DNA of 64,000 nt, from contig NZ_CP017279.1 in the NCBI RefSeq assembly GCF_001750725.1, positions 4,402,001-4,466,000 of the forward strand. The letters are read 5' to 3'. Under the pieces are notes generated by a model. It was not told where the DNA came from. It worked only from the letters and a program-made list of their open reading frames with translations, and searched no databases. This DNA comes from Enterobacter ludwigii. GTDB taxonomy: Bacteria; Pseudomonadota; Gammaproteobacteria; Enterobacterales; Enterobacteriaceae. Position 1 is the stretch's first letter; every line of letters starts with the position of its first letter. A program made the translations under genes and the position numbers. This document shows positions 44,095 through 57,940 of the stretch, piece by piece.

Positions 44095-44260
44095 CGTGAA
44101 CTCCTGTTAGTTAATCATGGGTATTGCAGGATTATGACACGCCAGGGGCCTGTTAAGCTTAGGTTTAGGCGGGTTAACGCATACTGATTGCTTCTTGCAC
44201 CTCAAAATAAAAGGTGACATGATTGCGCGAAATTTCTCCTTCCTGTGTACGGAGCCGCCA

Positions 44261-44335
44261 ATGATGATGTTGTCTGTCGCTGCGCGAACGCTCACCCGTA
44301 TCGATATTATCTACTCCTGTCTCACCGTTCGGTGA
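44261..44335 (+). CDS. Candidate 24-residue upstream ORF of speC
   Basis: Three ATG codons in a row start at 44261, with GGAG six bases before the first. The frame encodes MMMLSVAARTLTRIDIIYSC then LTVR, and its TGA (44333-44335) lies inside the 3' arm of a hairpin, 14 bases before the speC ATG. The position and the strong ribosome site suggest translational coupling or attenuation of speC. There is no homology evidence in this window. Confidence 0.45.
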   Translation: MMMLSVAARTLTRIDIIYSCLTVR

Positions 44336-44336
44336 G
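44321..44336 (+). promoter_or_regulatory. Hairpin overlapping the speC ribosome-binding region
   Basis: CTCACC, GTTC, GGTGAG form a 6-bp stem ending just before GGGTAACTGCACTT-ATG. The only purine-rich Shine-Dalgarno-like stretch of speC (GGTGAGGG) is partly in the 3' arm, so folding would limit initiation. Confidence 0.5.
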
Positions 44337-44349
44337 GGTAACTGCACTT

Positions 44350-46485
44350 ATGAAAACCATGAAAATCGCCGTCAGCCGCGAGCTGGTCTCTACTGTGTCT
44401 ACGCACCGCGAAAAGGTGACGCTGGATAACACTGATTTTACGGATGTGGCGGCAGTCGTCATTACCCCCGCGGAAAGTTGCAGCGGCATTCTGGCATTGC
44501 TTAAACGCACGGGCTTTCAGCTTCCGGTGTTTATTTACTCGCAAGAGCCGTCTGACGTTCCTGATGGCGCAACGGCAGTGATATCAGGTAAAGCTCAGGA
44601 GTTTCTGGAACTGGAGACGGCGGCCAGCCGGTATGAAGAGAATCTGTTGCCGCCATTTTTTGACACCCTGAGCCAGTACGTGGCGATGGGCAACAGTACT
44701 TTTGCCTGTCCGGGACACCAGCACGGTGCATTTTTTAAAAAACACCCTGCGGGACGGCAGTTCTATGAATTCTTCGGTGAGAACGTATTTCGCGCCGATA
44801 TGTGCAATGCCGATGTGAAACTGGGCGATCTGCTGATCCACGAAGGCTCCGCCAAGCATGCCCAGAAGTTCGCGGCAAAAGTCTTTAATGCTGATAAAAC
44901 CTACTTCGTACTGAACGGCACCTCCGCTGCAAATAAGGTGGTCACCAATGCGCTGCTGACCCGCGGCGACCTGGTGCTGTTCGATCGCAACAACCATAAG
45001 TCCAACCACCACGGTGCGCTGATCCAGGCGGGAGCCACGCCGGTTTATCTCGAAGCGGCGCGTAACCCGTTTGGTTTTATTGGCGGGATTGACGCGCAGT
45101 GCTTTGACGACGCGTACCTGCGAAATCAGATCCGTGAAGTTGCGCCGGAAAAGGCCATGGAGAAACGCCCGTTTCGTCTGGCGATCATTCAGCTTGGTAC
45201 CTACGATGGCACGATCTACAACGCCCGTCAGGTGATCGACAAGATCGGCCATCTTTGTGACTACATCCTGTTTGATTCGGCCTGGGTGGGCTACGAGCAG
45301 TTTATTCCGATGATGGCGGAAACCTCTCCGCTGTTACTGGATCTGAACGAGAACGATCCGGGCATTTTCGTGACGCAGTCGGTGCATAAACAGCAGGCCG
45401 GGTTCTCGCAGACTTCGCAGATCCATAAAAAAGATAATCACATTCGCGGCCAGGCGCGTTTCTGTCCGCACAAGCGCCTCAACAATGCGTTTATGCTCCA
45501 TGCCTCGACCAGTCCGTTCTATCCGCTGTTCGCGGCTCTTGATGTGAACGCGAAAATCCATGAAGGGGAGAGCGGGCGCCGGCTTTGGGCGGAGTGTGTT
45601 GAGCTGGGCATTGAGGCCCGCAAGGCGATCATTGCCAACTGCCATATGATCAAACCGTTTATTCCGCCGATGGTGGCCGGGCGTCCGTGGCAGGATCATC
45701 CCACTCACGCCATCGCCAGCGAGCGCCGCTTCTTCAGCTTTGAGCCGGGGGCTAAATGGCACGGGTTTGAAGGCTATGCCAGCGAGCAGTATTTCGTCGA
45801 TCCGTGCAAGCTGCTGCTGACCACGCCGGGTATTGATGCGGAAACCGGGGAATATACCGAGTTCGGCATTCCGGCGACCATTCTTGCGCACTACCTGCGT
45901 GAAAACGGCATTGTGCCGGAGAAATGCGATCTCAACTCGATCCTCTTCCTGCTGACGCCTGCCGAAAGCAGTGAGAAGCTGGCGCAGCTGGTGGCGATGC
46001 TGGGTCAGTTTGAACAGCATATTGAAGACGATACGCCGCTTGCTGACGTCCTGCCGACCATCTACCAGAAATACCCGGTACGGTATCGCGATTACACCCT
46101 TCGCCAGCTCTGCCAGGAGATGCACGATCTCTACGTGAGCTTTGACGTGAAAGATCTGCAGAAGGCAATGTTCCGTAAAGAGAGTTTGCCAGAACGGGCG
46201 ATGAATCCGCAGGATGCGAATCAGGCGTATATTCGCGGGAACGTGGAGCTGGTGCGCATTCGTGATGCCGGCGGACGCATTGCCGCCGAGGGCGCGCTGC
46301 CGTATCCCCCTGGCGTACTGTGCGTGGTGCCGGGTGAAATCTGGGGTGGGTCGGTACAGCGTTACTTCCTGGCGCTGGAGGAGGGCATCAACCTGCTGCC
46401 AGGCTTCTCGCCGGAGCTGCAGGGCGTTTACAGCGAAAAGGATCCCGATGGGATTAAGCGACTGTACGGGTATGTTTTGTCATAG
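44350..46485 (+). CDS. speC: Constitutive ornithine decarboxylase
   Basis: 711 residues, exactly the E. coli SpeC length when started at MKTMKIAVSRELVS. An N-terminal wing domain precedes a PLP domain; the PLP lysine is in SVHKQQAGFSQ. It converts ornithine to putrescine, the first polyamine. The larger frame to 44245 only reads through the leader and is not expected to be translated. No terminator with a T-run follows; a CCCTCTCCC-type palindrome lies between it and citB. Confidence 0.96.
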   Translation: MKTMKIAVSRELVSTVSTHREKVTLDNTDFTDVAAVVITPAESCSGILALLKRTGFQLPVFIYSQEPSDVPDGATAVISGKAQEFLELETAASRYEENLLPPFFDTLSQYVAMGNSTFACPGHQHGAFFKKHPAGRQFYEFFGENVFRADMCNADVKLGDLLIHEGSAKHAQKFAAKVFNADKTYFVLNGTSAANKVVTNALLTRGDLVLFDRNNHKSNHHGALIQAGATPVYLEAARNPFGFIGGIDAQCFDDAYLRNQIREVAPEKAMEKRPFRLAIIQLGTYDGTIYNARQVIDKIGHLCDYILFDSAWVGYEQFIPMMAETSPLLLDLNENDPGIFVTQSVHKQQAGFSQTSQIHKKDNHIRGQARFCPHKRLNNAFMLHASTSPFYPLFAALDVNAKIHEGESGRRLWAECVELGIEARKAIIANCHMIKPFIPPMVAGRPWQDHPTHAIASERRFFSFEPGAKWHGFEGYASEQYFVDPCKLLLTTPGIDAETGEYTEFGIPATILAHYLRENGIVPEKCDLNSILFLLTPAESSEKLAQLVAMLGQFEQHIEDDTPLADVLPTIYQKYPVRYRDYTLRQLCQEMHDLYVSFDVKDLQKAMFRKESLPERAMNPQDANQAYIRGNVELVRIRDAGGRIAAEGALPYPPGVLCVVPGEIWGGSVQRYFLALEEGINLLPGFSPELQGVYSEKDPDGIKRLYGYVLS

Positions 46486-46504
46486 CCGCCGTCATCCGTA
46501 ATCC

Positions 46505-46532
46505 CGGCCCTCTCCCAAAAGAGAGGGTCAGG
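46505..46532. repeat. CCCTCTCCC-type intergenic palindrome, copy 3
   Basis: GGCCCTCTCCC, AAAA, GAGAGGGTCAGGGC at the junction between speC and the citrate cluster. Confidence 0.65.
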
Positions 46533-46534
46533 GC

Positions 46535-47227
46535 TCACACCGCACTTCTCTTATACATCCTCCGTGGATGCCCAATCTTCCCGTACAACATCTCTACGCT
46601 CAGAAACCCCGCCTCCACGCAGTGCTCCAGATAGCGTCGGGTGGTGGTTTTACTTAATCCTGTCTCCTGCACGACCTCGTCGACGGAAAAACAGTGTGTC
46701 GCCTTGTCGTTAAACAACGCCTGCACCCGTGCCAGCGTATTCTCCTCAATGCCTTTGCTGCCGTTATCCAGACGGTAGTTTTTCGCCTGCAGCTGGTAGA
46801 GCGAGTCGACGTTCTGCTGGTCGACAATCTTCCAGACCCGCTGTTGTTCGGCAAACTGCACAAAGCGTTCAAGCGACTGGCTGAGGCGTTTCCAGGAGAC
46901 CGGCTTCAGGATGTAATCAAAGGCGCCATTTCGGATGGCCTGGCTGCAGGTGTCCATGTCGCTGGCAGCAGTAATGAAAATTACCGAACAGTTGGCGCGG
47001 GTGAGCATGGGGTCATTGATCAGTGTGATCCCTTTACCGTCCGGCAGATAGTTATCCAGCAGCATAAGCTGCGGCTGCTTGCTTTCAAGCTGGACCTGGG
47101 CGGCAGCGAGAGACGAGGCGATCCCTACCAGCCTCAGGCGCGGATGTTTACCGATAAGTTCCGCGTGCAGTTGCGCCAGTTCGTTCTCGTCTTCAACAAT
47201 CAATACGTCGATAAGTTCATGTTGCAT
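46535..47227 (-). CDS. citB: Citrate-responsive response regulator CitB
   Basis: 230 residues. A CheY-like receiver (VLIVEDENELAQLHAEL, phospho-acceptor in LMLLDNYLPDGKG) precedes a C-terminal helix-turn-helix (FSVDEVVQETGLSKTTTRRYL) of the CitB/DcuR class. The start MQHELIDV overlaps the end of citA by 11 bp; a longer frame lies inside citA. It should activate the divergent citS operon. In E. coli the equivalent pair is called DpiA/DpiB. Confidence 0.93.
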   Translation of the reverse strand: MQHELIDVLIVEDENELAQLHAELIGKHPRLRLVGIASSLAAAQVQLESKQPQLMLLDNYLPDGKGITLINDPMLTRANCSVIFITAASDMDTCSQAIRNGAFDYILKPVSWKRLSQSLERFVQFAEQQRVWKIVDQQNVDSLYQLQAKNYRLDNGSKGIEENTLARVQALFNDKATHCFSVDEVVQETGLSKTTTRRYLEHCVEAGFLSVEMLYGKIGHPRRMYKRSAV

Positions 47228-48842
47228 AGTCGGTATCTTCCAGTTGCTGGGCGGGACGCCGGGCGGGAATAAACAGTGAGAAAATGGCGCCGCGCGGGGT
47301 GTTATCGGCAATTTCTATCGCGCCGCCAGCCTGCGTAACATAGCTTTCGATCAGATACAGGCCAATCCCGTGATCGCCGCGTGTTTTGGTGGTGATGCCG
47401 CGTTCAAATATCCTGTCACGGATCTCCGGTTTGATGCCAACGCCCTGGTCGGCCACTTCGATAATCAGCTCCTGCTCGCTCAGTTTGATCAGCACTTCGA
47501 CCGGTGCATGGGGGAGCGGTGAGCGCTGCGTTGCTTCGATGGCGTTATCCAGCAGGTTGCCGATGATTGAGATCAGCTCTTCTTCAGCCAGCGACGGGAA
47601 CGGCCTGTCCAGCCGGCAGGCCGGGTCAAAACTGAGCTCGACCCCTTTCTCCCGCGCGCGGGCGGCTTTACCCAGCAGCAGGCCACACAGGGTCGGGGAG
47701 CTGAAGCGGGAAGAGATAAAGTCCAGCAGCTCCTGAGCGTGTTCCGACTGCGCCTGAATATAGCCAATCGCCTCTTCATAGCGGCCCATGTGCAGCAGGC
47801 CGGATAGAGTGGTCATGCGGTTCAACTGCTCATGACGCATGATGCGCAGGTTATCGACATAGCGTTTAACCTGGCTGAGCTGGGCGCTAAGCGAGTCAAT
47901 TTCATTCCGATCGCGGAAGGTGATCACCCAGCCCTGCAGCGAATCCTCAAGCATGATGCGCACCCGGCTGGCAATCACCGTGAGGGTGTTAAAACGGCAA
48001 ATTTCATCATGGGTATCTTTTGCCAGCATCGTCTGCGTCGAGAAGAACGGGACAGGGTCGATAACCTGGCTAATCAGCTGCCCGCGCAGTTCACGGGCTG
48101 GCTGGCTCAGGCCAAGCAACTTGCGCGCCGCCTGGTTGATCACCTCAATGCGCAGCTCATCATCGATGGCGATCACCCCTTCATAGATAGACTCCATCAT
48201 CGCCTTTTGCTGGCGCACCAGCAGGCCGATTTCCCGTGGCTCCAGGGAGAAGATCTGCTTCTTAATACTGCGGGTAAAGAACCAGGAGAAGATAAAGAGC
48301 GCAATCAACAGCAGCACGGCGGCCAGCAGGATATTGACCACTTTGCTGACGGTAATGGTATCAAGGTAGCTGGTGAGATAACCCACCGAGACAATCCCCA
48401 CCACTTGCCCCGCATCGTTGAAGATGGGCGCTTTGCTGCGCAGCGAAATACCCAACCCCCCTTTGCGGATGGTGGTGGTGCTTTTTCCCTGCAGGACTTC
48501 CTCATTGTCTCCACCGATAAGCGTCTTGCCCACTCTGTCGGCAAAGACCGAATGAAAAAGATGCAGACCTTTATTATCTCCAATCACAATAAAGCTGGCA
48601 TCACTGTGAGCGGCAATTTTCTGCATAAAATCATGGATGGCTTTGATATCTTTTTGTTCAACCTCATCACGTAATGAGGGAATAAGTGCGATCTCTTCCG
48701 CCTGTATTTTGGCACGTGCGCTCATTTCCTGATAAAGCTGCTTGCCGACATCGACGTAATAATATCCGCCCAGTAACGCAAAAAGTACTGAGAAAAAGGC
48801 GACCAGCGAAATAAACAGCTTAATCTGAAACGATACTTTCAT
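47217..48842 (-). CDS. citA: Citrate sensor histidine kinase CitA
   Basis: 541 residues from MKVSFQIKLFISLVAFF. Two membrane helices enclose a periplasmic PAS-like citrate-binding domain (DADRVGK-type region with FADRVGKTLIGGD, then TTTIRKGGLGISLRSKAPI, the basic residues that bind citrate in Klebsiella CitA). A cytoplasmic PAS domain, the DHp His in LRIMRHEQLNRM and the ATPase motifs LLDNAIEA, DQGVGI and GDHGIGLYL follow. The start at 48884 has no ribosome site. Phosphorylates CitB. Confidence 0.93.
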   Translation of the reverse strand: MKVSFQIKLFISLVAFFSVLFALLGGYYYVDVGKQLYQEMSARAKIQAEEIALIPSLRDEVEQKDIKAIHDFMQKIAAHSDASFIVIGDNKGLHLFHSVFADRVGKTLIGGDNEEVLQGKSTTTIRKGGLGISLRSKAPIFNDAGQVVGIVSVGYLTSYLDTITVSKVVNILLAAVLLLIALFIFSWFFTRSIKKQIFSLEPREIGLLVRQQKAMMESIYEGVIAIDDELRIEVINQAARKLLGLSQPARELRGQLISQVIDPVPFFSTQTMLAKDTHDEICRFNTLTVIASRVRIMLEDSLQGWVITFRDRNEIDSLSAQLSQVKRYVDNLRIMRHEQLNRMTTLSGLLHMGRYEEAIGYIQAQSEHAQELLDFISSRFSSPTLCGLLLGKAARAREKGVELSFDPACRLDRPFPSLAEEELISIIGNLLDNAIEATQRSPLPHAPVEVLIKLSEQELIIEVADQGVGIKPEIRDRIFERGITTKTRGDHGIGLYLIESYVTQAGGAIEIADNTPRGAIFSLFIPARRPAQQLEDTDYAT

Positions 48843-49187
48843 AACTATCACGCGAGGTAGCAGCAAAGATTGCCAATATATCATCTTTTTTCGCGCCGAT
48901 GCCCGGTTTGCCGAAAACTTGTGATCCCTTGCACAGCAGGCCCTGTAAAAGAATTTTCCGAATAGCCTATGCGCCTGAAGCCGTCTGGAGAAATGTTATT
49001 TGATTGTTCGTTTTAGAAAAGAAACCATAAAAACCACGGCAATAAATAAGGCGTAAATCACATTAAATAAAAGAAACCATTAAAACCATAGCTGCCATAA
49101 AAACTTCGCTTTTAATATGCCATCCCTCACATAAAGTAAGCCTTTGTGACTCTAAGCTGAACGCACAAAATAACTAAGGGGCTTATT
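48843..49187. other. 345-bp control region between citA and citS
   Basis: Divergent promoter region, AT-rich from 49000 to 49130. It contains the 20-bp direct repeat described separately. AAGGGG before the citS ATG is the citS ribosome site. Confidence 0.6.
49017..49088 (+). repeat. Phased 20-bp direct repeat, candidate CitB operator
   Basis: AAAAGAAACCAT(A/T)AAAACCA occurs at 49017-49036 and 49069-49088, 52 bp apart or about five helical turns. Each copy contains two AAACCA half-sites 9 bp apart. It lies 100-170 bp before citS. The layout suits a dimeric response regulator bound at two sites on one face. Confidence 0.55.
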
Positions 49188-50549
49188 ATGAGCACAACTG
49201 ACGATTCTTTCTCTGTTACCCACGACCCGATTGATATTCAGCGACCATCACTCAAAGAGCGCTGGTGGCATATTATGGATACGTGGAAAATCGGAATTAT
49301 CCCTCTGCCACTGTTTGTCCTGGCCGGCGCGCTGATTGCCATTGATTGCCTCGGCGGCAAACTGCCCAGCGATATCGTGGTGATGGTCGCCACGCTCGCG
49401 TTCTTCGGTTTTGCCTGCGGTGAGTTTGGCAAGCGCCTGCCGATTGTCGGTAAACTCGGCGCGGCGGCGATTTGTGCCACTTTTATTCCTTCGGCACTGG
49501 TCTATTACGGTCTGCTGCCGGATGTGGTGGTGGAGTCCACCACGAAGTTCTACAAATCCACCAACATTCTGTATCTCTACATCTGCTGCATCATTGTCGG
49601 CAGCATCATGAGCATGAACCGCACCGTGCTGATTCAGGGCTTCCTGCGCATCTTCTTCCCGATGCTCTGCGGCGAAATTGTCGGCATGATTGTTGGCATG
49701 GGCGTAGGGATAGCGCTGGGCCTTGAGCCATTCCAGATCTTCTTCTTTATCATTCTGCCGATCATGGCGGGCGGTGTTGGGGAAGGGGCGATCCCGCTCT
49801 CCATCGGCTATGCCACCCTGCTGCATATGGACCAGGGCGTGGCGCTCGGTCGCGTTCTGCCTATGGTTATGCTCGGCGGTCTGACGGCAATCATCATCTC
49901 CGGCTGCCTCAATCAGCTCGGTAAACGTTACCCGCACCTGACCGGCGAAGGCCAGCTGATGCCTAACCGTGCGAATACCGATGGAACCACCGCACAGCCT
50001 GCGTTCTCCGGTAAAGCAGACGTCACCACGATCGCTTCTGGCGCACTGCTGGCCGTTCTGCTCTACATGCTGGGGATGCTCGGCCACAAGCTGATTGGCC
50101 TGCCTGCGCCGGTTGGCATGCTGTTTATGGCGGTGCTGGTCAAGCTTTGCAATGGTGCTTCTCCGCGTCTGCTGGAAGGCTCTCAGGTGGTGTATAAATT
50201 CTTCCAGACGTCAGTAACTTACCCCATTCTCTTCGCTGTGGGCGTGGCCATTACCCCCTGGCATGAACTGGTCGCCGCATTCACGCTGACCAACCTGCTG
50301 GTGATTGTCAGCACCGTCTCCGCGCTGGTGGCGACCGGTTTCTTCGTGGGCAAAAAGATTGGCATGCACCCGATTGATGTCGCCATCGTCTCCTGCTGCC
50401 AGAGCGGCCAGGGCGGTACCGGTGACGTGGCGATTCTGACCGCAGGCAACCGTATGAGTCTGATGCCCTTCGCCCAGATTGCTACCCGTATTGGCGGCGC
50501 GATTAACGTCTCCATCTCTCTGCTGATACTGGGCAACTTCCTCGTTTAA
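49188..50549 (+). CDS. citS: Na+/citrate symporter CitS
   Basis: 453 residues of the 2-hydroxycarboxylate transporter family. Both signature reentrant-loop motifs occur: GGVGEG in IMAGGVGEGAIPLS and GQGGTGD in CQSGQGGTGDVA. It imports citrate with Na+ for anaerobic fermentation. AAGGGG precedes the ATG. It heads the operon citS-FAH-citCDEFXG, with 17 bp to the next gene. Confidence 0.93.
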   Translation: MSTTDDSFSVTHDPIDIQRPSLKERWWHIMDTWKIGIIPLPLFVLAGALIAIDCLGGKLPSDIVVMVATLAFFGFACGEFGKRLPIVGKLGAAAICATFIPSALVYYGLLPDVVVESTTKFYKSTNILYLYICCIIVGSIMSMNRTVLIQGFLRIFFPMLCGEIVGMIVGMGVGIALGLEPFQIFFFIILPIMAGGVGEGAIPLSIGYATLLHMDQGVALGRVLPMVMLGGLTAIIISGCLNQLGKRYPHLTGEGQLMPNRANTDGTTAQPAFSGKADVTTIASGALLAVLLYMLGMLGHKLIGLPAPVGMLFMAVLVKLCNGASPRLLEGSQVVYKFFQTSVTYPILFAVGVAITPWHELVAAFTLTNLLVIVSTVSALVATGFFVGKKIGMHPIDVAIVSCCQSGQGGTGDVAILTAGNRMSLMPFAQIATRIGGAINVSISLLILGNFLV

Positions 50550-50566
50550 GTTTTCAGGAAAGAACA

Positions 50567-51430
50567 ATGAAACTCGCAAGCTTTTTATACCAGGGAACAC
50601 GCAGCTACGGCATCGTTCAGGCCGAAGGTGTGATTGATTTAGGTCGCCGTCTCGGCGACCGCTACAGCGACCTCAAAGCGCTGCTGCAGGGCAACGGGCT
50701 GGCTGAGGCCACCCGTTATCTCAACGACGCCGTGGATGTCCCTCTGAATGCCATCACCTTCTTACCGGTGATTGAGCAGCCGGAAAAAATCCTCTGCGTG
50801 GGCATGAACTACGCCGACAAACGCAAAGAGTTTGACCAGCACAACCCGGCGCCGACGCTGTTTGTCCGCTTCCCGGATTCGCAGACCGGCCACAACGAAC
50901 CGGTGCTGAAGCCGCGTCACTCCAGTGAATTCGACTACGAAGGAGAGCTGGCGGTCATCATCGGCAAAGCCGGAGAGAACATCAGCCGTGATGAGGCGCT
51001 GCGCCATGTGGCAGGTTACAGCTGCTATATGGACGGCTCCGCCCGCGACTGGCAGCACACCTGGTTTACGGCAGGCAAGAACTGGCGTCAGACCGGAGCG
51101 TTTGGCCCGTGGATGGCGACGGCTGATGAGATCCCGGACCCGCACCAGCTGGCGATCCGCACCTGGCTTAACGGCCGTATGGTGCAGGAAGACAACACCA
51201 GCAGCATGATCCACAAGGTCGCGGAGCTTATCGAATACATCAGCACCTTTACCCGCCTCAGCCCGGGCGATGTGATCATCACCGGCTCCCCTGGCGGCGT
51301 GGGCAAAAAGCGCAACCCGCCGCTGTTCATGAAAGAGGGCGATCGCATTGAGGTGGAGATCGAGCATATCGGTCATCTGAGCAATGTGATCATGGAAGCG
51401 CCCGCCACCGGGCTTGCGGCAGCACACTGA
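50567..51430 (+). CDS. FAH-family protein, candidate soluble oxaloacetate decarboxylase
   Basis: 287 residues of the fumarylacetoacetate hydrolase family. The metal ligands are E125 and E127 in DYEGELAVIIG and D156 in YMDGSARDWQ; the C-terminal GSPGGVGKKRNPP loop is typical. Family members FAHD1 and Corynebacterium Cg1458 decarboxylate oxaloacetate. It lies inside the citrate operon, between citS and citC, with no oadGAB genes present, so oxaloacetate to pyruvate is the likely reaction. Ring or acylpyruvate hydrolase activity is an alternative. AGGAAAG precedes the ATG. Confidence 0.85.
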   Translation: MKLASFLYQGTRSYGIVQAEGVIDLGRRLGDRYSDLKALLQGNGLAEATRYLNDAVDVPLNAITFLPVIEQPEKILCVGMNYADKRKEFDQHNPAPTLFVRFPDSQTGHNEPVLKPRHSSEFDYEGELAVIIGKAGENISRDEALRHVAGYSCYMDGSARDWQHTWFTAGKNWRQTGAFGPWMATADEIPDPHQLAIRTWLNGRMVQEDNTSSMIHKVAELIEYISTFTRLSPGDVIITGSPGGVGKKRNPPLFMKEGDRIEVEIEHIGHLSNVIMEAPATGLAAAH

Positions 51431-51440
51431 GTAAAACGGC

Positions 51441-52466
51441 ATGAACAGTCAACCCACTATTGATTTTCGCCACACCCTTGTGGCGAAACACCCGGAACGC
51501 TTAAGCCAGATCCGTTACCTGCTGGCAGACAGCGGCCTTGGCCTGGACAACGACATCACGCTGTTTGTCGAAGCCTGGTCCGGCACGCAGCTGGTGGGTT
51601 GTGCCGGGCTTGCCGCTAACGTCATCAAGTGCGTGGCGGTAAACGAGCAGCTTCGTGGGGAGAACCTCAGCGCACGGTTGCTGGCAGAGGTGGAAAATGC
51701 GGCGCTGGAGCGCGGCCATTTTCACCTCTTCCTCTGCACCCGTCCGTGCAACAAGGAGCGCTTTGGCCGCAGCGGCTTCTGGCCGATTGCCCAGAGCGGG
51801 AACAACGCGGTGCTGATGGAGAACACCCCGCAGGGGATCCAGCGCTACTGCCGCGCGCTCAAGTGCCAGCGCAAGGCCGGGAAGAAGATTGGCGCGATCG
51901 TGATGAATGCGAATCCGTTTACCCTCGGCCACCGGCATCTGGTCGAGCAGGCCGCGGGGCAGTGCGATGCGCTGCATCTGTTTGTGGTGCGCGAGGATGC
52001 CTCGTTCTTCCCGTTCAGCGCCCGGCTAGAGATGGTACGGGCGGGCGTGGCGCATCTGCCGAACGTGATTGTGCATGAAGGATCGCAGTACATCATCTCC
52101 CGCGCCACGTTCCCGGCCTACTTCCTGAAAGAGACCGGCAAAGTACAGCAGGCGTGGAGCGAAATCGATGTGCTGATCTTCCGGGACTTCATCGCTCCGG
52201 CGCTGGGTATTACGCATCGCTTTATCGGTTCGGAGCCGTTTTGCGATATCACCCGTCAGTACAACCAGACGCTGCACGACCTGCTGGCCTCGCAGATTGA
52301 CGTGGTGGAAATGCCGCGCATCAAGGTCACCGGCAACGCTATTTCCGCGTCGGAAGTCCGCCGCTTGCTGAAGACACAGCAGTTTTCCCGGATCCGGGAG
52401 ATTGTCCCGGACTCCACCTTCGCGCACCTCGAAACGCATTACCGTGCGAGTGCGGAAGTCGCATAA
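51441..52466 (+). CDS. citC: [Citrate (pro-3S)-lyase] ligase CitC
   Basis: 341 residues. An N-terminal GNAT-like domain precedes a nucleotidyltransferase domain with the HXGH-type motif NANPFTLGHRHLV and a later ISASEVRRLL. It acetylates the thiol of the citrate lyase prosthetic group with ATP and acetate, switching the lyase on. The ribosome site is weak, suggesting coupling to the gene 10 bp upstream. Confidence 0.95.
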   Translation: MNSQPTIDFRHTLVAKHPERLSQIRYLLADSGLGLDNDITLFVEAWSGTQLVGCAGLAANVIKCVAVNEQLRGENLSARLLAEVENAALERGHFHLFLCTRPCNKERFGRSGFWPIAQSGNNAVLMENTPQGIQRYCRALKCQRKAGKKIGAIVMNANPFTLGHRHLVEQAAGQCDALHLFVVREDASFFPFSARLEMVRAGVAHLPNVIVHEGSQYIISRATFPAYFLKETGKVQQAWSEIDVLIFRDFIAPALGITHRFIGSEPFCDITRQYNQTLHDLLASQIDVVEMPRIKVTGNAISASEVRRLLKTQQFSRIREIVPDSTFAHLETHYRASAEVA

Positions 52467-52482
52467 CTATCAGGAATTTATC

Positions 52483-52776
52483 ATGAAAATTGTTAGGGAG
52501 GCGCTGGCCGGTACACAGGAGTCCAGCGACCTGATGGTAAAAATTGCCCCCGCTCAGGGTGAGCTGGAAATTATCATCCACAGTGAAGTGATTAAGCAGT
52601 TTGGCGAACATATTCGCCAGGTCGTTAACGACACATTGCGCGCCATGAACGTGCACCAGGGATTAATTATTGTTGAAGACAAAGGGGCGCTGGACTGTGT
52701 GATCCGCGCCCGCCTGCAAAGTGCGCTCCTGCGCGCAGCCGTTGAGCCGACACTCAACTGGGGGGCGCTGAAATGA
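52483..52776 (+). CDS. citD: Citrate lyase acyl carrier protein (gamma subunit)
   Basis: 97 residues, the normal size. The attachment serine for 2'-(5''-phosphoribosyl)-3'-dephospho-CoA is S14 in [18 protein letters not shown] precedes the ATG. Its stop overlaps the citE start by 4 bp. Confidence 0.95.
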
Positions 52777-53648
52777 GCAAACTCCGCCGCAGTATGCTGT
52801 TCCTGCCGGGCGCAAACGCCGCCATGCTCTCTACGGCATTTATCTACCGCCCGGACTCCATCATGTTTGACCTTGAAGACGCCGTCGCCCTGCGCGAGAA
52901 GGATACCGCGCGCATGCTGGTGTTTCATGCCCTGCAGCACCCGATGTATCAGGATATCGAAACCGTGGTGCGCATTAACCCGCTGAGCACGCCGTTTGGC
53001 TTGCTGGATCTGGAAGCCGCCGTGCGGGCAGGGGTGGACGTGATTCGATTGCCGAAAACCGACACCCCAGAGGATATCGATGAGCTGGAAGGGCATCTGG
53101 CGCGTATTGAGCGTGAATGCGGGCGCGAGCCGGGCTCGACCCGCGTCATGGCGGCTATTGAATCGGCGATTGGGGTGATTAACGCCGTGGCCATTGCCCG
53201 CAGTTCTCCGCGCTTAATCGGGATCGCGCTGGCCGCCTTTGATTATGTGATGGACATGCAGACGGAACGCGGGGATGGCACTGAGCTGTTTTATGCCCGC
53301 TGTGCCGTGCTGCACGCCGCCCGCGCCGCGGGTATCGACGCTTTCGACGTGGTGTGGTCGGACGTTAACGATGAAGCCGGCTTCCTGCGCGAGGTCGATT
53401 TGATCCGCAAGATGGGCTTTAACGGTAAATCGCTGATTAACCCACGTCAGATTGACCTGTTACATAACGCCTATGCCCCAACCCAGCAGGAAGTGGATCA
53501 CGCGAAACGGGTGATTGAAGCGGCAGAAGAGGGGGAGCGTAACGGCCTGGGCGTCGTGTCGCTCAACGGCAAAATGGTCGATGCCCCTATTATTAACCAC
53601 GCGCAGATGGTGCTGGAACGCGCGGCGGCCTCCGGCGTGCGTCGTTAA
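52773..53648 (+). CDS. citE: Citrate lyase beta subunit (citryl-ACP lyase)
   Basis: 291 residues of the HpcH/HpaI aldolase family. The Mg2+ site residues are in MFDLEDAVA and [14 protein letters not shown]; the N-terminus [18 protein letters not shown] is typical. It cleaves citryl-ACP to acetyl-ACP and oxaloacetate. It overlaps citD by 4 bp and precedes citF by 10 bp. Confidence 0.96.
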
Positions 53649-53658
53649 GGATTACACA

Positions 53659-55176
53659 ATGAATCAGATAGAACTTCTCCATGTGAATTTCCCCCATCTG
53701 CGGGACTTAAAACCGTTTGATGCCGCCCACAGCGCAACGCCATGGCTGAACAGCCCTGACGAAAAACACACCCGTAAGCTCTGTGCTTCGGTCGAAGAGG
53801 CGGTGTTACGCAGCGGGTTACAGGACGGGATGACCGTCTCCTTCCACCACGCGTTTCGCGAAGGCGACCGGGTGATCAATACCGTCGTGGCGCTGCTTGC
53901 GCGTATGGGCTTTAAAAACCTGACGCTGGCTTCCAGCTCGCTGATGACCTGTAACGACGCGCTGATCGAACACATCGAAAGCGGCGTTATCACCCGGATT
54001 TACACCTCCGGTATGCGTGGCAAGCTGGCGGACGCTATCTCACACGGGTTGATGGCCGAGCCGGTACAAATTCACTCCCACGGCGGGCGCGTGAAGCTGT
54101 TGCAGGACGGCGAGCTGAATATCGACGTGGCGTTTCTTGGCGTGCCGTGCAGCGATGAATTTGGCAACGCCAACGGCACGCACGGGAAATCGTGCTGCGG
54201 CTCGCTTGGCTATGCAATGGTGGATGCGCATTTTGCCCGCAAGGTGGTGCTGCTGACCGAAGAACTGGTGCCGTTCCCGAATATGCCCGCCAGCCTGGTG
54301 CAGGATCAGGTGGATTACATTGTGCAGGTGGAGAGCGTGGGTGACCCGGCGAAAATCAGCGTCGGTGCAGCTCGCGTGACCAGTAATCCGCGTGAGCTGA
54401 TGATTGCCCGCTACGCGGCGGATGTGATTGAACATTCAGGCTATTTCAAACCCGGTTTTTCCATGCAGACCGGCTCCGGTGCGGCGGCTACCGCCTGTAC
54501 CCGCTTTATGGAGGAGAAAATGGAGCGCAGCGGCGTGAAGGCGCGCTTCGCGCTCGGGGGCATTACCGGCAGCCTGGTGGATCTGCACGAGAAAGGCCTG
54601 ATCGAAAAGCTGCTCGATACCCAGTGTTTCGATGGCCAGGCCGCGGCCTCGCTGGCACGAAATCCGAATCATGTGGAGATCTCCACCAACGTTTATGCCA
54701 ACCCCGGCAGCAAGGCAGCAAGCTGCGACCAGCTTGATGTGGTGATCCTGAGCGCCCTGGAAATTGACGTCGATTTTAACGTCAATGTTATTACCGGCTC
54801 TGACGGCGTAATGCGTGGGGCATCCGGCGGACATTGTGATGTGGCCGCGGCGGCGAACCTGACCATCGTGGTCGCCCCCCTGCTGCGTAGCCGTATTCCA
54901 ACCGTCGTGAAGCGGGTGACCACCCGGCTGACGCCCGGGGAGAGTATCGACGTGCTGGTCACCGATCACGGCATCGCGGTTAACCCGGCACGCCCGGAAA
55001 TCCGCGAACGACTGCTTGCCGCAGGCCTCAACGTTGTCGATATCAATGCGCTTTTCGAGCGGGCGATATCACTGACCGGCGTACCAAAACCCATTGAGTT
55101 TACCGACAAAATCGTCGGTGTGATCCGCTACCGCGACGGCAGCGTTATCGACACCGTTCGACAGGTGAAGGAGTAA
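53659..55176 (+). CDS. citF: Citrate lyase alpha subunit (citrate-ACP transferase)
   Basis: 505 residues, close to the E. coli length. It swaps the acetyl group on the acyl carrier for citrate. Conserved stretches include GVPCSDEFGNANGTHGKSCC and GGHCDVAAAANLTIVV. The start MNQIELLHVNFPHL is right after the citE stop; a longer in-frame start lies inside citE. Its stop overlaps the citX start by one base. Confidence 0.96.
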   Translation: MNQIELLHVNFPHLRDLKPFDAAHSATPWLNSPDEKHTRKLCASVEEAVLRSGLQDGMTVSFHHAFREGDRVINTVVALLARMGFKNLTLASSSLMTCNDALIEHIESGVITRIYTSGMRGKLADAISHGLMAEPVQIHSHGGRVKLLQDGELNIDVAFLGVPCSDEFGNANGTHGKSCCGSLGYAMVDAHFARKVVLLTEELVPFPNMPASLVQDQVDYIVQVESVGDPAKISVGAARVTSNPRELMIARYAADVIEHSGYFKPGFSMQTGSGAAATACTRFMEEKMERSGVKARFALGGITGSLVDLHEKGLIEKLLDTQCFDGQAAASLARNPNHVEISTNVYANPGSKAASCDQLDVVILSALEIDVDFNVNVITGSDGVMRGASGGHCDVAAAANLTIVVAPLLRSRIPTVVKRVTTRLTPGESIDVLVTDHGIAVNPARPEIRERLLAAGLNVVDINALFERAISLTGVPKPIEFTDKIVGVIRYRDGSVIDTVRQVKE

Positions 55177-55718
55177 TGATGACTGTAGCGACACCCGTGC
55201 GGGCGGGTGTCAGCCTGGAGGAGCTGCTGGCGGCGAAAGAGCGCCGTGCAGCACGCCAGACTGACTGGCTCACGCACTATCAACAACCGGTGATTTCTCT
55301 CACGCTCGTCACCCCCGGGGAGATCAAAGACAGCCTGCGCTATCGCAATACGATGGGCGTGGCATTGCAGATGTGCGACCAGCTGCTGTGGGAAAACCGC
55401 TGGCAGGTGCTGGACCGCCAGGTGCTGTGGCTGCCCACCGGGCCAGAAGCAATCTGGTGCGTGGCGCATCCGGCGGCGGAAATCAAAGCGCACTGTACGG
55501 ATCTGGAGCAGACTCACCCACTCGGCAGGCTGTGGGATTTGGATGTGATCTGCCCGGTACAGGGGCATGTGGGGCGCCAGTCTTTAGGGACACATCTCCG
55601 GCGCTGTCTGGTATGTGATGAGCCTGCCCACGCCTGTTCTCGTTCGCGTAAGCATCCTGTAGAGCAGGTGGTGGCTCGCGTGGAGAAGATGATCGATGAC
55701 TGGTTTGCTCGCGACTAA
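55176..55718 (+). CDS. citX: Apo-citrate lyase phosphoribosyl-dephospho-CoA transferase CitX
   Basis: 180 residues. The motif GRLWDLDVICP carries the conserved acidic residues of the transferase. It moves the prosthetic group onto CitD. Two ATG codons in a row (55176, 55179) are both possible. It overlaps citG by 23 bp in another frame. Confidence 0.94.
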   Translation: MMTVATPVRAGVSLEELLAAKERRAARQTDWLTHYQQPVISLTLVTPGEIKDSLRYRNTMGVALQMCDQLLWENRWQVLDRQVLWLPTGPEAIWCVAHPAAEIKAHCTDLEQTHPLGRLWDLDVICPVQGHVGRQSLGTHLRRCLVCDEPAHACSRSRKHPVEQVVARVEKMIDDWFARD

Positions 55719-56505
55719 CCCGCAGCCATGCGATGTGCCAGGGCTTGCCGAAGAGGCGTTATGGCAGGAGCTGGCGTTGACGCCAAAGCCGGGTCTGGTG
55801 GATAAGCTCAACAACGGTGCACACCGCGATATGGACCATGCGCTGTTTGCCCGCAGTATTGCGGCTATCACCCCGTGGTTTGCGCGCTTTGCAGAGCTGG
55901 GTCATACCCATGCGGATAAACCCGCGGCGGAACAAATACGGATCATTCGCCCGATGGGCATTGCCTGTGAACAGGCAATGTACGCTGCAACATGCGGGGT
56001 GAACACGCATAAAGGCGGCATTTTTGCCCTCGGTTTGCTGTGCTTTGCCGCCGGACGTGTGAAACACGCCACGGCTGAGAGCCTCTGTAGTGAGGTGAGT
56101 CACCTCTGTCGCGGGCTGGTAGCGCGTGAGCTGGCAGCACGCAGTGGACAGGCGACGGCAGGGGAGCGGCAGTTTCAGCAGTATGGGTTAACCGGCGCAC
56201 GGGGCGAAGCGGAAAGCGGTTTTGCTACGGTGCGTGCAGCGCTGGCGCAATGGAACGGGCACGCGCTGCATGACCTGCTGCTGCGCCTGATGGCGATGAA
56301 TCAGGACAGTAACCTGGTGTCGCGCGGCGGTATGGAAGGGCTGCGTTATGTGCAGGGGTATGCGCGGGCATTACTGACGCGTGGCTGGGATCGTGATGCA
56401 TTAATACAGATGGACAATGCGCTCATTGAACGGAATTTAAGCCCGGGCGGCAGTGCGGATTTATTGTCGGTAGGATGGGTGCTGGCGAAATTACCCCTCT
56501 CCTGA
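55696..56505 (+). CDS. citG: Triphosphoribosyl-dephospho-CoA synthase CitG
   Basis: 269 residues. Conserved stretches LTPKPGLVDKLNNGAHRDMD, GVNTHKGGIFALGLL and QDSNLVSRGGMEG. It makes the prosthetic-group precursor from dephospho-CoA and ATP. Separate citX and citG genes match E. coli; Leuconostoc fuses them. The last codons (LPLS and stop) lie inside a CCCTCTCC-type palindrome. Last gene of the operon. Confidence 0.94.
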   Translation: MTGLLATNPQPCDVPGLAEEALWQELALTPKPGLVDKLNNGAHRDMDHALFARSIAAITPWFARFAELGHTHADKPAAEQIRIIRPMGIACEQAMYAATCGVNTHKGGIFALGLLCFAAGRVKHATAESLCSEVSHLCRGLVARELAARSGQATAGERQFQQYGLTGARGEAESGFATVRAALAQWNGHALHDLLLRLMAMNQDSNLVSRGGMEGLRYVQGYARALLTRGWDRDALIQMDNALIERNLSPGGSADLLSVGWVLAKLPLS

Positions 56506-56516
56506 AAGGAGAGGGG
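56494..56516. repeat. CCCTCTCC-type palindrome, copy 4, overlapping the citG end
   Basis: CCCCTCTCCT, GAA, AGGAGAGGGG: a nearly perfect 10-bp stem. The TGA of citG is in the loop. It lies between the convergent citG and nupG and may be their terminator. Confidence 0.75.
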
Positions 56517-56523
56517 ATAATCA

Positions 56524-57780
56524 TTAATGCGCGATAGGCTGCGCAGCGTGCGGTTCGCGTACGTGCTTGTACTTGAACAGTGCGATAAACGCGAAGAACA
56601 GTACCAATGAGTACGCGGCGAAGATAAGCCACACGGGCTGCCAGTTGGTGATGCCGTTAGTGGTGTACATCTCAACCACTTTACCGCTCACCACACCGCC
56701 CAGAATACAGCCGAAGCCGTTGGTCATCATCAGGAACATACCCTGAGCACTGGCGCGAATTTCAGGTTTCACCTCTTTTTCCACAAACACCGAACCAGAG
56801 ATGTTGAAGAAGTCGAAGGCGCAGCCGTAAACAATCATCGACAGAACCAGCAGCACGGTACCGAACGGGCTTGGGTCGCCGTAGGCAAACAGACCGAAGC
56901 GCAACATCCATGCAGCGATACTGATCAGCATGACGTTCTTGATGCCGTAGCGGCTCAGGAAGAACGGGATGGTCAGGATGAACAGCGTCTCAGAGATCTG
57001 AGAGATGGACATCATCACTGACGCATGTTCAACGATAAAGCTGCCAGAGAACAGCGGGTTATTGTCGAAGCTGTGCAGGAAGGTGTTGCCGAACATGTTG
57101 GTGATCTGCAGTTCCGCACCCAGCAGCATGGAGAAGATAAAGAAGATCGCCATGCGTTTGTTTTTAAACAGCGCAAAGGCGTCCAGACCGAGCATGGTGC
57201 TCCAGCTCTGGTTTTTCTGCTGGTTAGACACCGGAATATGCGGCAGGGTCAGGGTGAACAGCGCCAGCACCACGGAGAGTGCCGCCCCGATGTAGAGCTG
57301 CATATGGCTCAGTTCGAAGCCTGCGAAGCTCACGCCCCACATTGCCATGATAAAGCCGATGGTGCCCCAGATACGGATTGGTGGGAAATCGGTGACGATT
57401 TCCATACCGGCAGATTTCAGGCGGTAGTAGGAGATGGTGTTGATCAGGCCAAGCGTTGGCATGTAGGCCAGCGAGTTAAACAGGATCACCATGAACATCG
57501 CCCCCGGCGTGGTGACCTGGGCTGCCATAAACAGCGTCCCCGCACCCACCAGATGGCAAAGCATGTACAGCCATTTCGCACTTAACCATTTATCCGCCAC
57601 GATCCCCAGCAGCGTTGGCATAAAGACAGCCGCAATGCCGAGCGAGCTGTAGACGGCACCGATAGACGCACCATCGAACTTGAGCGTCACAAACATATAG
57701 GAGCCGAGTGTAGTCAGCCAGCTACCCCACAGGCAGAACTGCAGAAACGACAATATTTTAAGCTGCAGCTTAAGGTTCAT
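56524..57780 (-). CDS. nupG: Nucleoside:H+ symporter NupG
   Basis: 418 residues, the E. coli length from MNLKLQLKILSFLQFCLWGS. Twelve hydrophobic segments of the NHS family of the MFS, with DFPPIRIWGTIGFIMAMW after helix 4. It imports purine and pyrimidine nucleosides. The upstream region has CytR-like and CRP-like motifs, in line with control by CytR, DeoR and CRP in E. coli. Confidence 0.95.
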   Translation of the reverse strand: MNLKLQLKILSFLQFCLWGSWLTTLGSYMFVTLKFDGASIGAVYSSLGIAAVFMPTLLGIVADKWLSAKWLYMLCHLVGAGTLFMAAQVTTPGAMFMVILFNSLAYMPTLGLINTISYYRLKSAGMEIVTDFPPIRIWGTIGFIMAMWGVSFAGFELSHMQLYIGAALSVVLALFTLTLPHIPVSNQQKNQSWSTMLGLDAFALFKNKRMAIFFIFSMLLGAELQITNMFGNTFLHSFDNNPLFSGSFIVEHASVMMSISQISETLFILTIPFFLSRYGIKNVMLISIAAWMLRFGLFAYGDPSPFGTVLLVLSMIVYGCAFDFFNISGSVFVEKEVKPEIRASAQGMFLMMTNGFGCILGGVVSGKVVEMYTTNGITNWQPVWLIFAAYSLVLFFAFIALFKYKHVREPHAAQPIAH

Positions 57781-57843
57781 GTTACTTTCCTCACAAGTGA
57801 GCGGGAGATATGTTGTTATAGGAACATTCAGGGTTGTTATTTG

Positions 57844-57940
57844 ATGCAATTCTATCAGCAGGCGAGGTTATGTTTTGTTACCTCCCGCAAAAAAATGCAA
57901 TCCACATTAATTTGCAGTTTGGATTGTGATGCAAATAACA
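57844..57940 (-). promoter_or_regulatory. Candidate CytR/CRP control region of nupG
   Basis: ATGCAA occurs at 57844-57849, 57895-57900 and 57929-57934; the CytR half-site is GTTGCATT, whose complement contains ATGCAA. A CRP-like site is TGTGA (57925-57929), six bases, TAACA (57936-57940). Distances to the unknown start are not checked. Confidence 0.45.

Follow-up and report, generated by a model that had tools for sequence, protein, structure and literature searches.

Textbook accounts of citrate fermentation in enteric bacteria rest on the sodium pump OadGAB. The window analyzed here (the whole stretch of 64,000 nucleotides of Enterobacter ludwigii DNA) contains a citrate operon in which a single FAH-family gene lies between a carrier gene and citC, raising the question of how oxaloacetate is consumed in this pathway. 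A preliminary description had proposed that this gene encodes a soluble oxaloacetate decarboxylase in the place of oadGAB and had read the preceding carrier as the Na+-dependent CitS.

Organization of the Citrate Operon

The operon and its divergent regulators comprise the following genes.

46535..47227, minus strand: CitB/CitZ-like response regulator (start chosen at an inner ATG)
47217..48842, minus strand: CitA/CitY-like sensor kinase, divergent (start chosen at an inner ATG)
49188..50549, plus strand: 2HCT (2-hydroxycarboxylate) carrier, assigned to the CitW type (84% identity to a K. pneumoniae carrier)
50567..51430, plus strand: FAH-family gene, putative soluble oxaloacetate decarboxylase (287 aa, PF01557)
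51441..52466, plus strand: citC, citrate lyase ligase (TIGR00124, 393 bits, cut-off 262)
52483..52776, plus strand: citD, acyl carrier subunit (start chosen at an inner ATG of ORF 52402-52776)
52773..53648, plus strand: citE, beta subunit (TIGR01588, 472 bits, cut-off 443)
53659..55176, plus strand: citF, alpha subunit (TIGR01584, 759 bits, cut-off 501; start chosen at an inner ATG of ORF 53515-55176)
55176..55718, plus strand: citX, prosthetic group transfer (Pfam and NCBIfam)
55696..56505, plus strand: citG, triphosphoribosyl-dephospho-CoA synthase (Pfam and NCBIfam)

All six cit genes matched citrate lyase models of Pfam and NCBIfam, confirming the previously described order of carrier, FAH gene, and citC, D, E, F, X, and G. 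The FAH gene begins 17 bases after the carrier gene and ends 10 bases before citC. No sigma-70-like site was found in 48700-51600 and no terminator-like site between the carrier and FAH genes; overall, 3 terminator-like sites were found against 3.1 expected, which is the chance level. This lack of internal promoter and terminator sites is weakly consistent with a single operon. Within 44245-57849, the operon is flanked by what we take to be ornithine decarboxylase-like and NupG-like transporter genes, whose counterparts are presumably neighbors in E. coli. At two other loci (L106 and L107), similar neighbors recur at both ends, next to the regulators and downstream of citG.

As the preliminary description had noted, the cluster contains no oad genes, and for OadA and OadB this absence extends to the rest of the genome. 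A search of the whole source genome for the OadB and OadA domains returned no matches to OAD_beta (PF03977) and none to PYC_OADA (PF02436), placing it outside the set of oadGAB genomes by these two domains. Among 14 control genomes, PF03977 matched in two and PF02436 in seven.

The Carrier Is of the CitW Type

The carrier scores below the cut-offs of both the NCBIfam CitS equivalog (219.7 bits, cut-off 600) and the ccs subfamily model (409.5 bits, cut-off 549). Compared with carriers from three genomes of the sample whose citrate cluster has the Klebsiella/Salmonella citS layout (one of which, G096, has its oad genes in a gap), it is 29–30% identical; it is 84% identical to the carrier of K. 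pneumoniae ATCC 13883 (L174) and 85% identical to that of K. michiganensis. The ATCC 13883 gene adjoins citX and divergent CitA/CitB-like genes, with no citrate lyase genes in the 21 kb covered, matching the citWX-citYZ arrangement described for K. pneumoniae (excerpt of PMC2735749). K. pneumoniae CitW has been reported to exchange citrate for acetate (excerpt of PMC2453333). Judged by its sequence, the window carrier is of the CitW type and by orthology, drawn through the L174 carrier rather than a published citW sequence, would perform the same exchange.

Substrate-site residues agree with this assignment. The side-chain ligands of CitS given in an excerpt of PMC4718727 are N401, S427, and D407 at the Na2 site and N186, S405, R402, R428, and Y348 for citrate. 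At these places the window carrier has G401, T427, and D407 and V186, T405, Q402, R428, and I348, respectively, and the same residues occur in all 81 CitW-type rows (80 loci plus L198); D407 and R428 are kept. Given the sub-cut-off scores, the low identity, and the loss of N401, R402, N186, and Y348, we rejected the CitS label. The earlier argument about the energetics of an Na+-dependent CitS loses its premise, and the question of a Na+ carrier without a pump falls away in that form.

Sequence Features of the FAH Protein

The 287-aa product of ORF 50567-51430(+) has a single PF01557 (FAA_hydrolase) domain (211.8 bits, cut-off 23.9, 1.2e-62). The metal ligands E125, E127, and D156, already pointed out in the preliminary description, are invariant in 116/116 aligned rows, as are Q163 and K171; this comparison consists of the window protein and 115 fetched rows, which include the window gene again and a few genes twice. 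Differences from the E. hormaechei gene (L118) fall 6/7/71 by codon position, a mark of purifying selection that, together with the presence of the gene across many genera, shows it to be conserved beyond chance.

Q163 corresponds to FAHD1 Q109, and K171 may correspond to K123. YcgM has the same glutamine; the match of K171 to K123 was made through an alignment with YisK, and a MAFFT alignment with YcgM shifts the place of K171. At the position of the FAHD1 dyad H30/E33, the window protein has K85/E88, whereas all seven solved relatives displayed there have histidine at the K85 place. These alignments would put K85 in the active site. Among the solved relatives are the HpaG isomerase/decarboxylase, the acylpyruvase FAHD1, and chain 4dbf (111.5 bits), which we take to be Cg1458. 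The source genome encodes three other FAH domains, two in one frame (which we infer to be HpaG-like from its two-domain frame) and one in a YcgM orthologue (L003:1495-2154). Against the YcgM equivalog model NF007967, the window protein scores 101.6 bits, under the cut-off of 201.

The lysine marks a clade. When 52 FAH proteins were placed in a tree, the window's bacterial family contributed 44 rows, of which 41 grouped together (99/94) and three (L094-L096) fell outside; within this group, 24 FAHs of citrate and aconitate clusters (with CitW or isomerase/MFS neighbors) form a subgroup (96/92) without L074. Lysine occupies the dyad-histidine place in all 41 clade rows; of the 11 rows outside, eight carry histidine there and three arginine. 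The dyad partner Glu is conserved in 38/41 clade rows and R160 in 40/41, and the metal ligands, Q163, and K171 are conserved in every one. The best 120 of the 6668 matches of a homologue search were all close relatives and were kept out of the lysine count. For FAHD1, K123 and Q109 have been proposed to act on oxaloacetate, with the dyad holding water (excerpt of PMC8398924). The loss of the dyad histidine would argue against a hydrolase. The residues that are kept do not separate a decarboxylase from a tautomerase, as tautomerases share most of them.

Two sets of FAH relatives depart further from this pattern. At L088, L091, and L093, where the neighbors, identified by family searches on L088, encode a DHDPS-family protein, a carrier of the DcuA/DcuB type, and a LacI regulator, the dyad partner glutamate is lost as well. 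L224-L226 have Glu for the third ligand D156, Arg for K85, and Val for Q163 and probably have another activity.

FAH, OadGAB, and CitT-Family Carriers in Citrate and Tartrate Clusters

A family sample of 119 genomes, one per genus, contains 49 intact citF places; 43 genomes have any match, and G028 has fragments only. FAH lies directly before citC at 25 of the 49 places, in 22 genomes. Nineteen of these 25 clusters have a CitW-type carrier (in two frames at L011), five have an isomerase (a 4-oxalomesaconate tautomerase by NCBIfam), an MFS carrier, and aconitase AcnB, and one has a PF03547 carrier. At the other 24 citF places, a CitT-family carrier is found at 18 and oadGAB at three (L097, L098, and L080, with FAH downstream too in L080). 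The remaining three are L103, a scaffold gap whose edge encodes an OadB tail, L211 at a contig end, and L203, where no outlet was seen. CitT-family calls were made by tblastn against one carrier matching PF00939, many of them at 35–37%; family membership suggests that these carriers exchange succinate.

Where a cluster has oad genes or a CitT-family carrier, FAH is present in 3/23 cases, versus 23/24 where it has neither (Fisher p = 3.6e-9), a count that leaves out L103 (gap) and L211 (cut) and in which shared ancestry makes p overstate independence. Two FAH clusters, L072 and L073, also have a CitT-family carrier. For CitT-family genes, 15 of the 19 CitW-type clusters of the sample were read over ~4 kb, and none was found in the best 80 loci described below, mostly ~20 kb each. 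Of the 22 sample genomes in which FAH directly precedes citC, 21 lack OAD_beta; in the exception, G009, it belongs to a tartrate operon.

L(+)-Tartrate dehydratase also yields oxaloacetate, and tartrate operons divide in much the same way among a CitT-family carrier, the sodium pump, and FAH. ttdA occurs in 11 genomes. Six have a CitT-family carrier (33–35%) and no FAH in the stretch, and G009 has oadGAB. In G067 and G097, FAH lies right behind ttdB, the carrier is of the MFS type, and the genome lacks OAD_beta; G028 has a decayed copy of this MFS/FAH kind with FAH pieces, and G096 combines FAH with an OadB tail bordering a scaffold gap. In citrate and tartrate clusters alike, FAH, oadGAB, and CitT-family carriers are for the most part alternatives to one another. 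A strict one-for-one replacement of oadGAB by FAH was rejected: L080 has both, and the apparent replacement at L079 (G096) is the scaffold gap with the OadB tail at its edge, which we counted as an oad case. ORFs of 863 and 460 aa at the scaffold-gap loci (L079/L103) are artifacts of runs of N.

Several other features of these clusters were observed. L105 and L219 of G028 are citrate-FAH and tartrate-FAH clusters decayed into many frames; this genome is 49% complete and is either decaying or poorly sequenced. A weakly CitG-like gene (~210–235 aa) follows oadGAB in L099 (11411-12115), L079 (9387-10082), and L080 (7422-8051), in both citrate and tartrate operons. The combination of isomerase, MFS carrier, FAH, citCDEFXG, and AcnB (L071 7524-18597, L072, L073, L083, and L085) possibly represents a pathway for trans-aconitate fermentation.

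With all contexts considered, FAH matches at E <= 1e-60 number 46 across 33 genomes of the family sample. Contexts were read by eye, and 32 matches lie in or by oxaloacetate-producing clusters: the 25 before citC, the decayed G028 citrate cluster, L080, L079, L084, L089, and two that share a region with a 4-carboxy-4-hydroxy-2-oxoadipate aldolase. The aldolase of such gallate-like clusters carries an oxaloacetate decarboxylase annotation of its own, and a second decarboxylase there would be redundant. The other 14 matches have no clear oxaloacetate source; some clade members, for example, lie beside DHDPS-family, LeuCD-like, or other genes.

Distribution across Relatives

A contig scan for the carrier gave 209 relatives, and the best 80 of 209 loci were kept. 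In 68 of these best 80 CitW-type loci, the FAH gene is found between carrier gene and citC, with median match-to-match gaps of 25 and 18 bases; 78 of the 80 have a CitA match on the other strand. Represented genera are, among others, Enterobacter, Lelliottia, Kluyvera, Raoultella, Kosakonia, Phytobacter, Pantoea, Pectobacterium, Rahnella, and Aeromonas (L164 and L170). citF is also missing from 11 of the 12 FAH-less loci; the twelfth, L149 from a MAG, has citDEFXG without FAH and citC. Locus L143, which has FAH, breaks off ahead of citF. Another of the loci, L169, is filed under Chryseobacterium sp. 18061 and has an enterobacterial citAB-citW-citXG much like that of Citrobacter sp. 18056 (L166), probably through contamination of the assembly.

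OAD_beta was searched for in the genomes behind 49 of the best 80 loci. Among the 37 reached through FAH-bearing loci, one had a match above the cut-off (L140), and L135 fell below it. Among the 12 with FAH-less loci, three have OAD_beta, namely those of K. pneumoniae, K. michiganensis, and Raoultella sp. BIGb0138, and nine likewise lack it; the BIGb0138 genome has a FAH-bearing locus (L137) as well.

Within Enterobacter, the FAH gene is present in 43/61 genomes at an identity of at least 91%, with a second copy (69–71%) in seven of the 43. A sample of the class gave FAH matches in 8/274 genomes including the source, at 41–53% identity outside the family. Only one other citF was found in this sample beyond the family, and it is hence little informative.

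Proposed Function and Alternatives

Sequence and context together lead us to regard the window FAH as probably a soluble, cytosolic oxaloacetate decarboxylase for citrate fermentation. In this scheme, the CitW-type carrier would import citrate against acetate, and citrate lyase (CitDEF, matured by CitC, CitX, and CitG) would cleave it to acetate and oxaloacetate. The divalent-metal-dependent FAH enzyme would convert oxaloacetate to pyruvate and CO2, and pyruvate would then yield acetate. Energy may be saved through the charge-moving exchange and the proton used in decarboxylation, with no sodium pump, much as lactic acid bacteria would do with CitP and soluble CitM. The chemistry could resemble that of FAHD1 and Cg1458, with bidentate oxaloacetate on the metal, a glutamine-held rotation, loss of CO2, and protonation of the pyruvate enolate. 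Reaction, rate, and energy coupling are all predicted.

The fixed place of the gene, the mutual replacement described above, and the near absence of OAD_beta from genomes with FAH before citC speak for decarboxylation, and so do three further observations. The residues assigned an oxaloacetate role in FAHD1 are kept (the metal ligands, R160, Q163, and K171), the gene accompanies oxaloacetate producers (citrate/AcnB sets, the aldolase region, and tartrate operons), and it is missing where citF is missing in the 11 FAH-less loci. Other observations weigh against it. FAH and oad genes coexist in L080 and L079, so that FAH is not only a substitute; L072 and L073 combine it with a CitT-family carrier, and L149 and L203 have citrate lyase without it. 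Few FAH-less loci come with OAD_beta, the neighboring aldolase carries its own decarboxylase annotation, and 14/46 matches are without an oxaloacetate source. The decarboxylase proposal of the preliminary description is supported by context, namely mutual replacement and a genome without OadA/OadB domains, and stays short of proof because the tested FAHD enzymes mainly tautomerize oxaloacetate (excerpt of PMC10825186). We found no report of an FAH gene in a bacterial citrate operon in the open-licence literature, which does not imply its absence from print.

The main alternative, itself unlikely though worth weighing, is an oxaloacetate tautomerase of the OAT1/YcgM kind, which would supply malate dehydrogenase or a housekeeping malic enzyme with the keto form and would decarboxylate too slowly to matter. 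Tartrate dehydration would give enol-oxaloacetate first, as would suit such an enzyme, and the FAH genes alongside oad genes in L080 and L079 are placed as a helper would be. Citrate lyase, however, should release keto-oxaloacetate. A tautomerase would also be as useful in CitT-family and oad clusters, and FAH is absent from 18/20 of the former and 2/3 of the latter. Furthermore, the genome already has its YcgM orthologue, the window protein scores below the YcgM equivalog cut-off, and the dyad histidine is a lysine in 41/41 clade rows. Biochemical data also speak for this reading: every unmutated FAHD enzyme that Zmuda et al. assayed was a strong tautomerase with trace decarboxylase activity (0.003–0.299 µmol/min/mg for decarboxylation versus 1.7–717 for tautomerization; excerpt of PMC10825186). 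These decarboxylase values are low for a fermentation step. A review of FAHD1 disputes that decarboxylation is minor (excerpt of PMC12176266).

Quite improbable is a clean-up hydrolase or lyase acting on some other 2-oxo acid or acylpyruvate that arises as a by-product of citrate or oxaloacetate. The FAH family acts on a wide range of acylpyruvates and related acids, the solved relatives include the HpaG isomerase/decarboxylase and the acylpyruvase FAHD1, and DHDPS-family and LeuCD-like genes neighbor some clade members. Such an enzyme would not be expected to alternate with oadGAB and CitT-family carriers, and the histidine of the proposed water-holding dyad of FAHD1 is missing. That the gene is a dispensable passenger, with oxaloacetate going to pyruvate by the malate dehydrogenase and malic enzyme that enteric bacteria have as housekeeping enzymes, or to succinate, is scarcely credible given its fixed place in 68 of the best 80 loci and 25/49 sample clusters, its purifying selection, and its loss along with citF in 11/12 FAH-less loci.

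Comparison with Known Systems

The window operon resembles the Klebsiella/Salmonella system (citS-oadGAB-citAB plus citCDEFG) in its citrate lyase, CitA/CitB-type regulators, and oxaloacetate intermediate and differs in having a CitW-type carrier, no OadA/OadB, and one FAH gene before citC. With the E. coli-type citCDEFXGT clusters it has the citrate lyase genes and CitAB-type regulators in common; there, CitT swaps citrate for succinate (excerpt of PMC2735749), so no decarboxylase is needed.

The citM/CitP system of lactic acid bacteria likewise places a soluble decarboxylase gene in this position and uses a citrate exchanger, but CitM is of the malic enzyme family, whereas the window enzyme has an FAH domain. 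An excerpt of PMC10798043 places the citM gene just before citCDEF in Weissella, with citI between in Lactococcus, and describes decarboxylation as using a proton and citrate transport as making membrane potential. According to the same source, citM and oad genes occur together in E. faecalis, which sets a precedent for L080 and L079.

FAHD1, YcgM, and YisK are oxaloacetate tautomerases with weak decarboxylase activity. The window protein has the same domain and metal ligands as these enzymes, as well as Q163 and further residues of the oxaloacetate site; it differs from them in its dyad lysine and pathway-specific operon and has a longer N-terminus than YcgM and FAHD1. Cg1458, a soluble FAH-type oxaloacetate decarboxylase of Corynebacterium, has the same domain and the reaction proposed here and is not known from a citrate operon. 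Its equivalent glutamine is reported to be nearly essential (excerpt of PMC8398924).

Klebsiella citYZ-citWX shares the carrier (84%/85%) and the divergent regulator pair with the window, and the K. pneumoniae CitX is 77% identical (L174, L193); FAH, citCDEF, and citG are absent. This locus may be a shortened version of the window operon, and removal of FAH-citCDEF would explain the lone citX of K. pneumoniae. Regulators, carrier, and citX only are found at L174, L171, L188, L190, L193, L195, and L197 (Klebsiella/Raoultella-type), and, judged by record titles, both forms coexist in Raoultella ornithinolytica (L138, L171), Raoultella sp. BIGb0138 (L137, L188), and Enterobacter sp. 10-1 (L148, L190).

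A broader proposal, to which we give even chances, is that the lysine clade is a plug-in decarboxylase for citrate, aconitate, and tartrate fermentation in Enterobacterales and Aeromonas where neither oadGAB nor a succinate antiporter is present, that FAH with CitW forms a sodium-free energy scheme like that of lactic acid bacteria, and that citWX-citYZ is a remnant left after takeover by oadGAB. If the decarboxylase function holds, a large share of the group (43/61 genomes of the window's own genus carry the gene) would process oxaloacetate without sodium, with one gene in place of three and no biotin, and a widespread, vaguely annotated FAH clade would gain a function. The decarboxylase activity of FAH enzymes, disputed against tautomerase activity (excerpts of PMC10825186 and PMC12176266), would have a physiological home, and there would be a reason why K. 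pneumoniae has citX and citW away from its citrate lyase genes.
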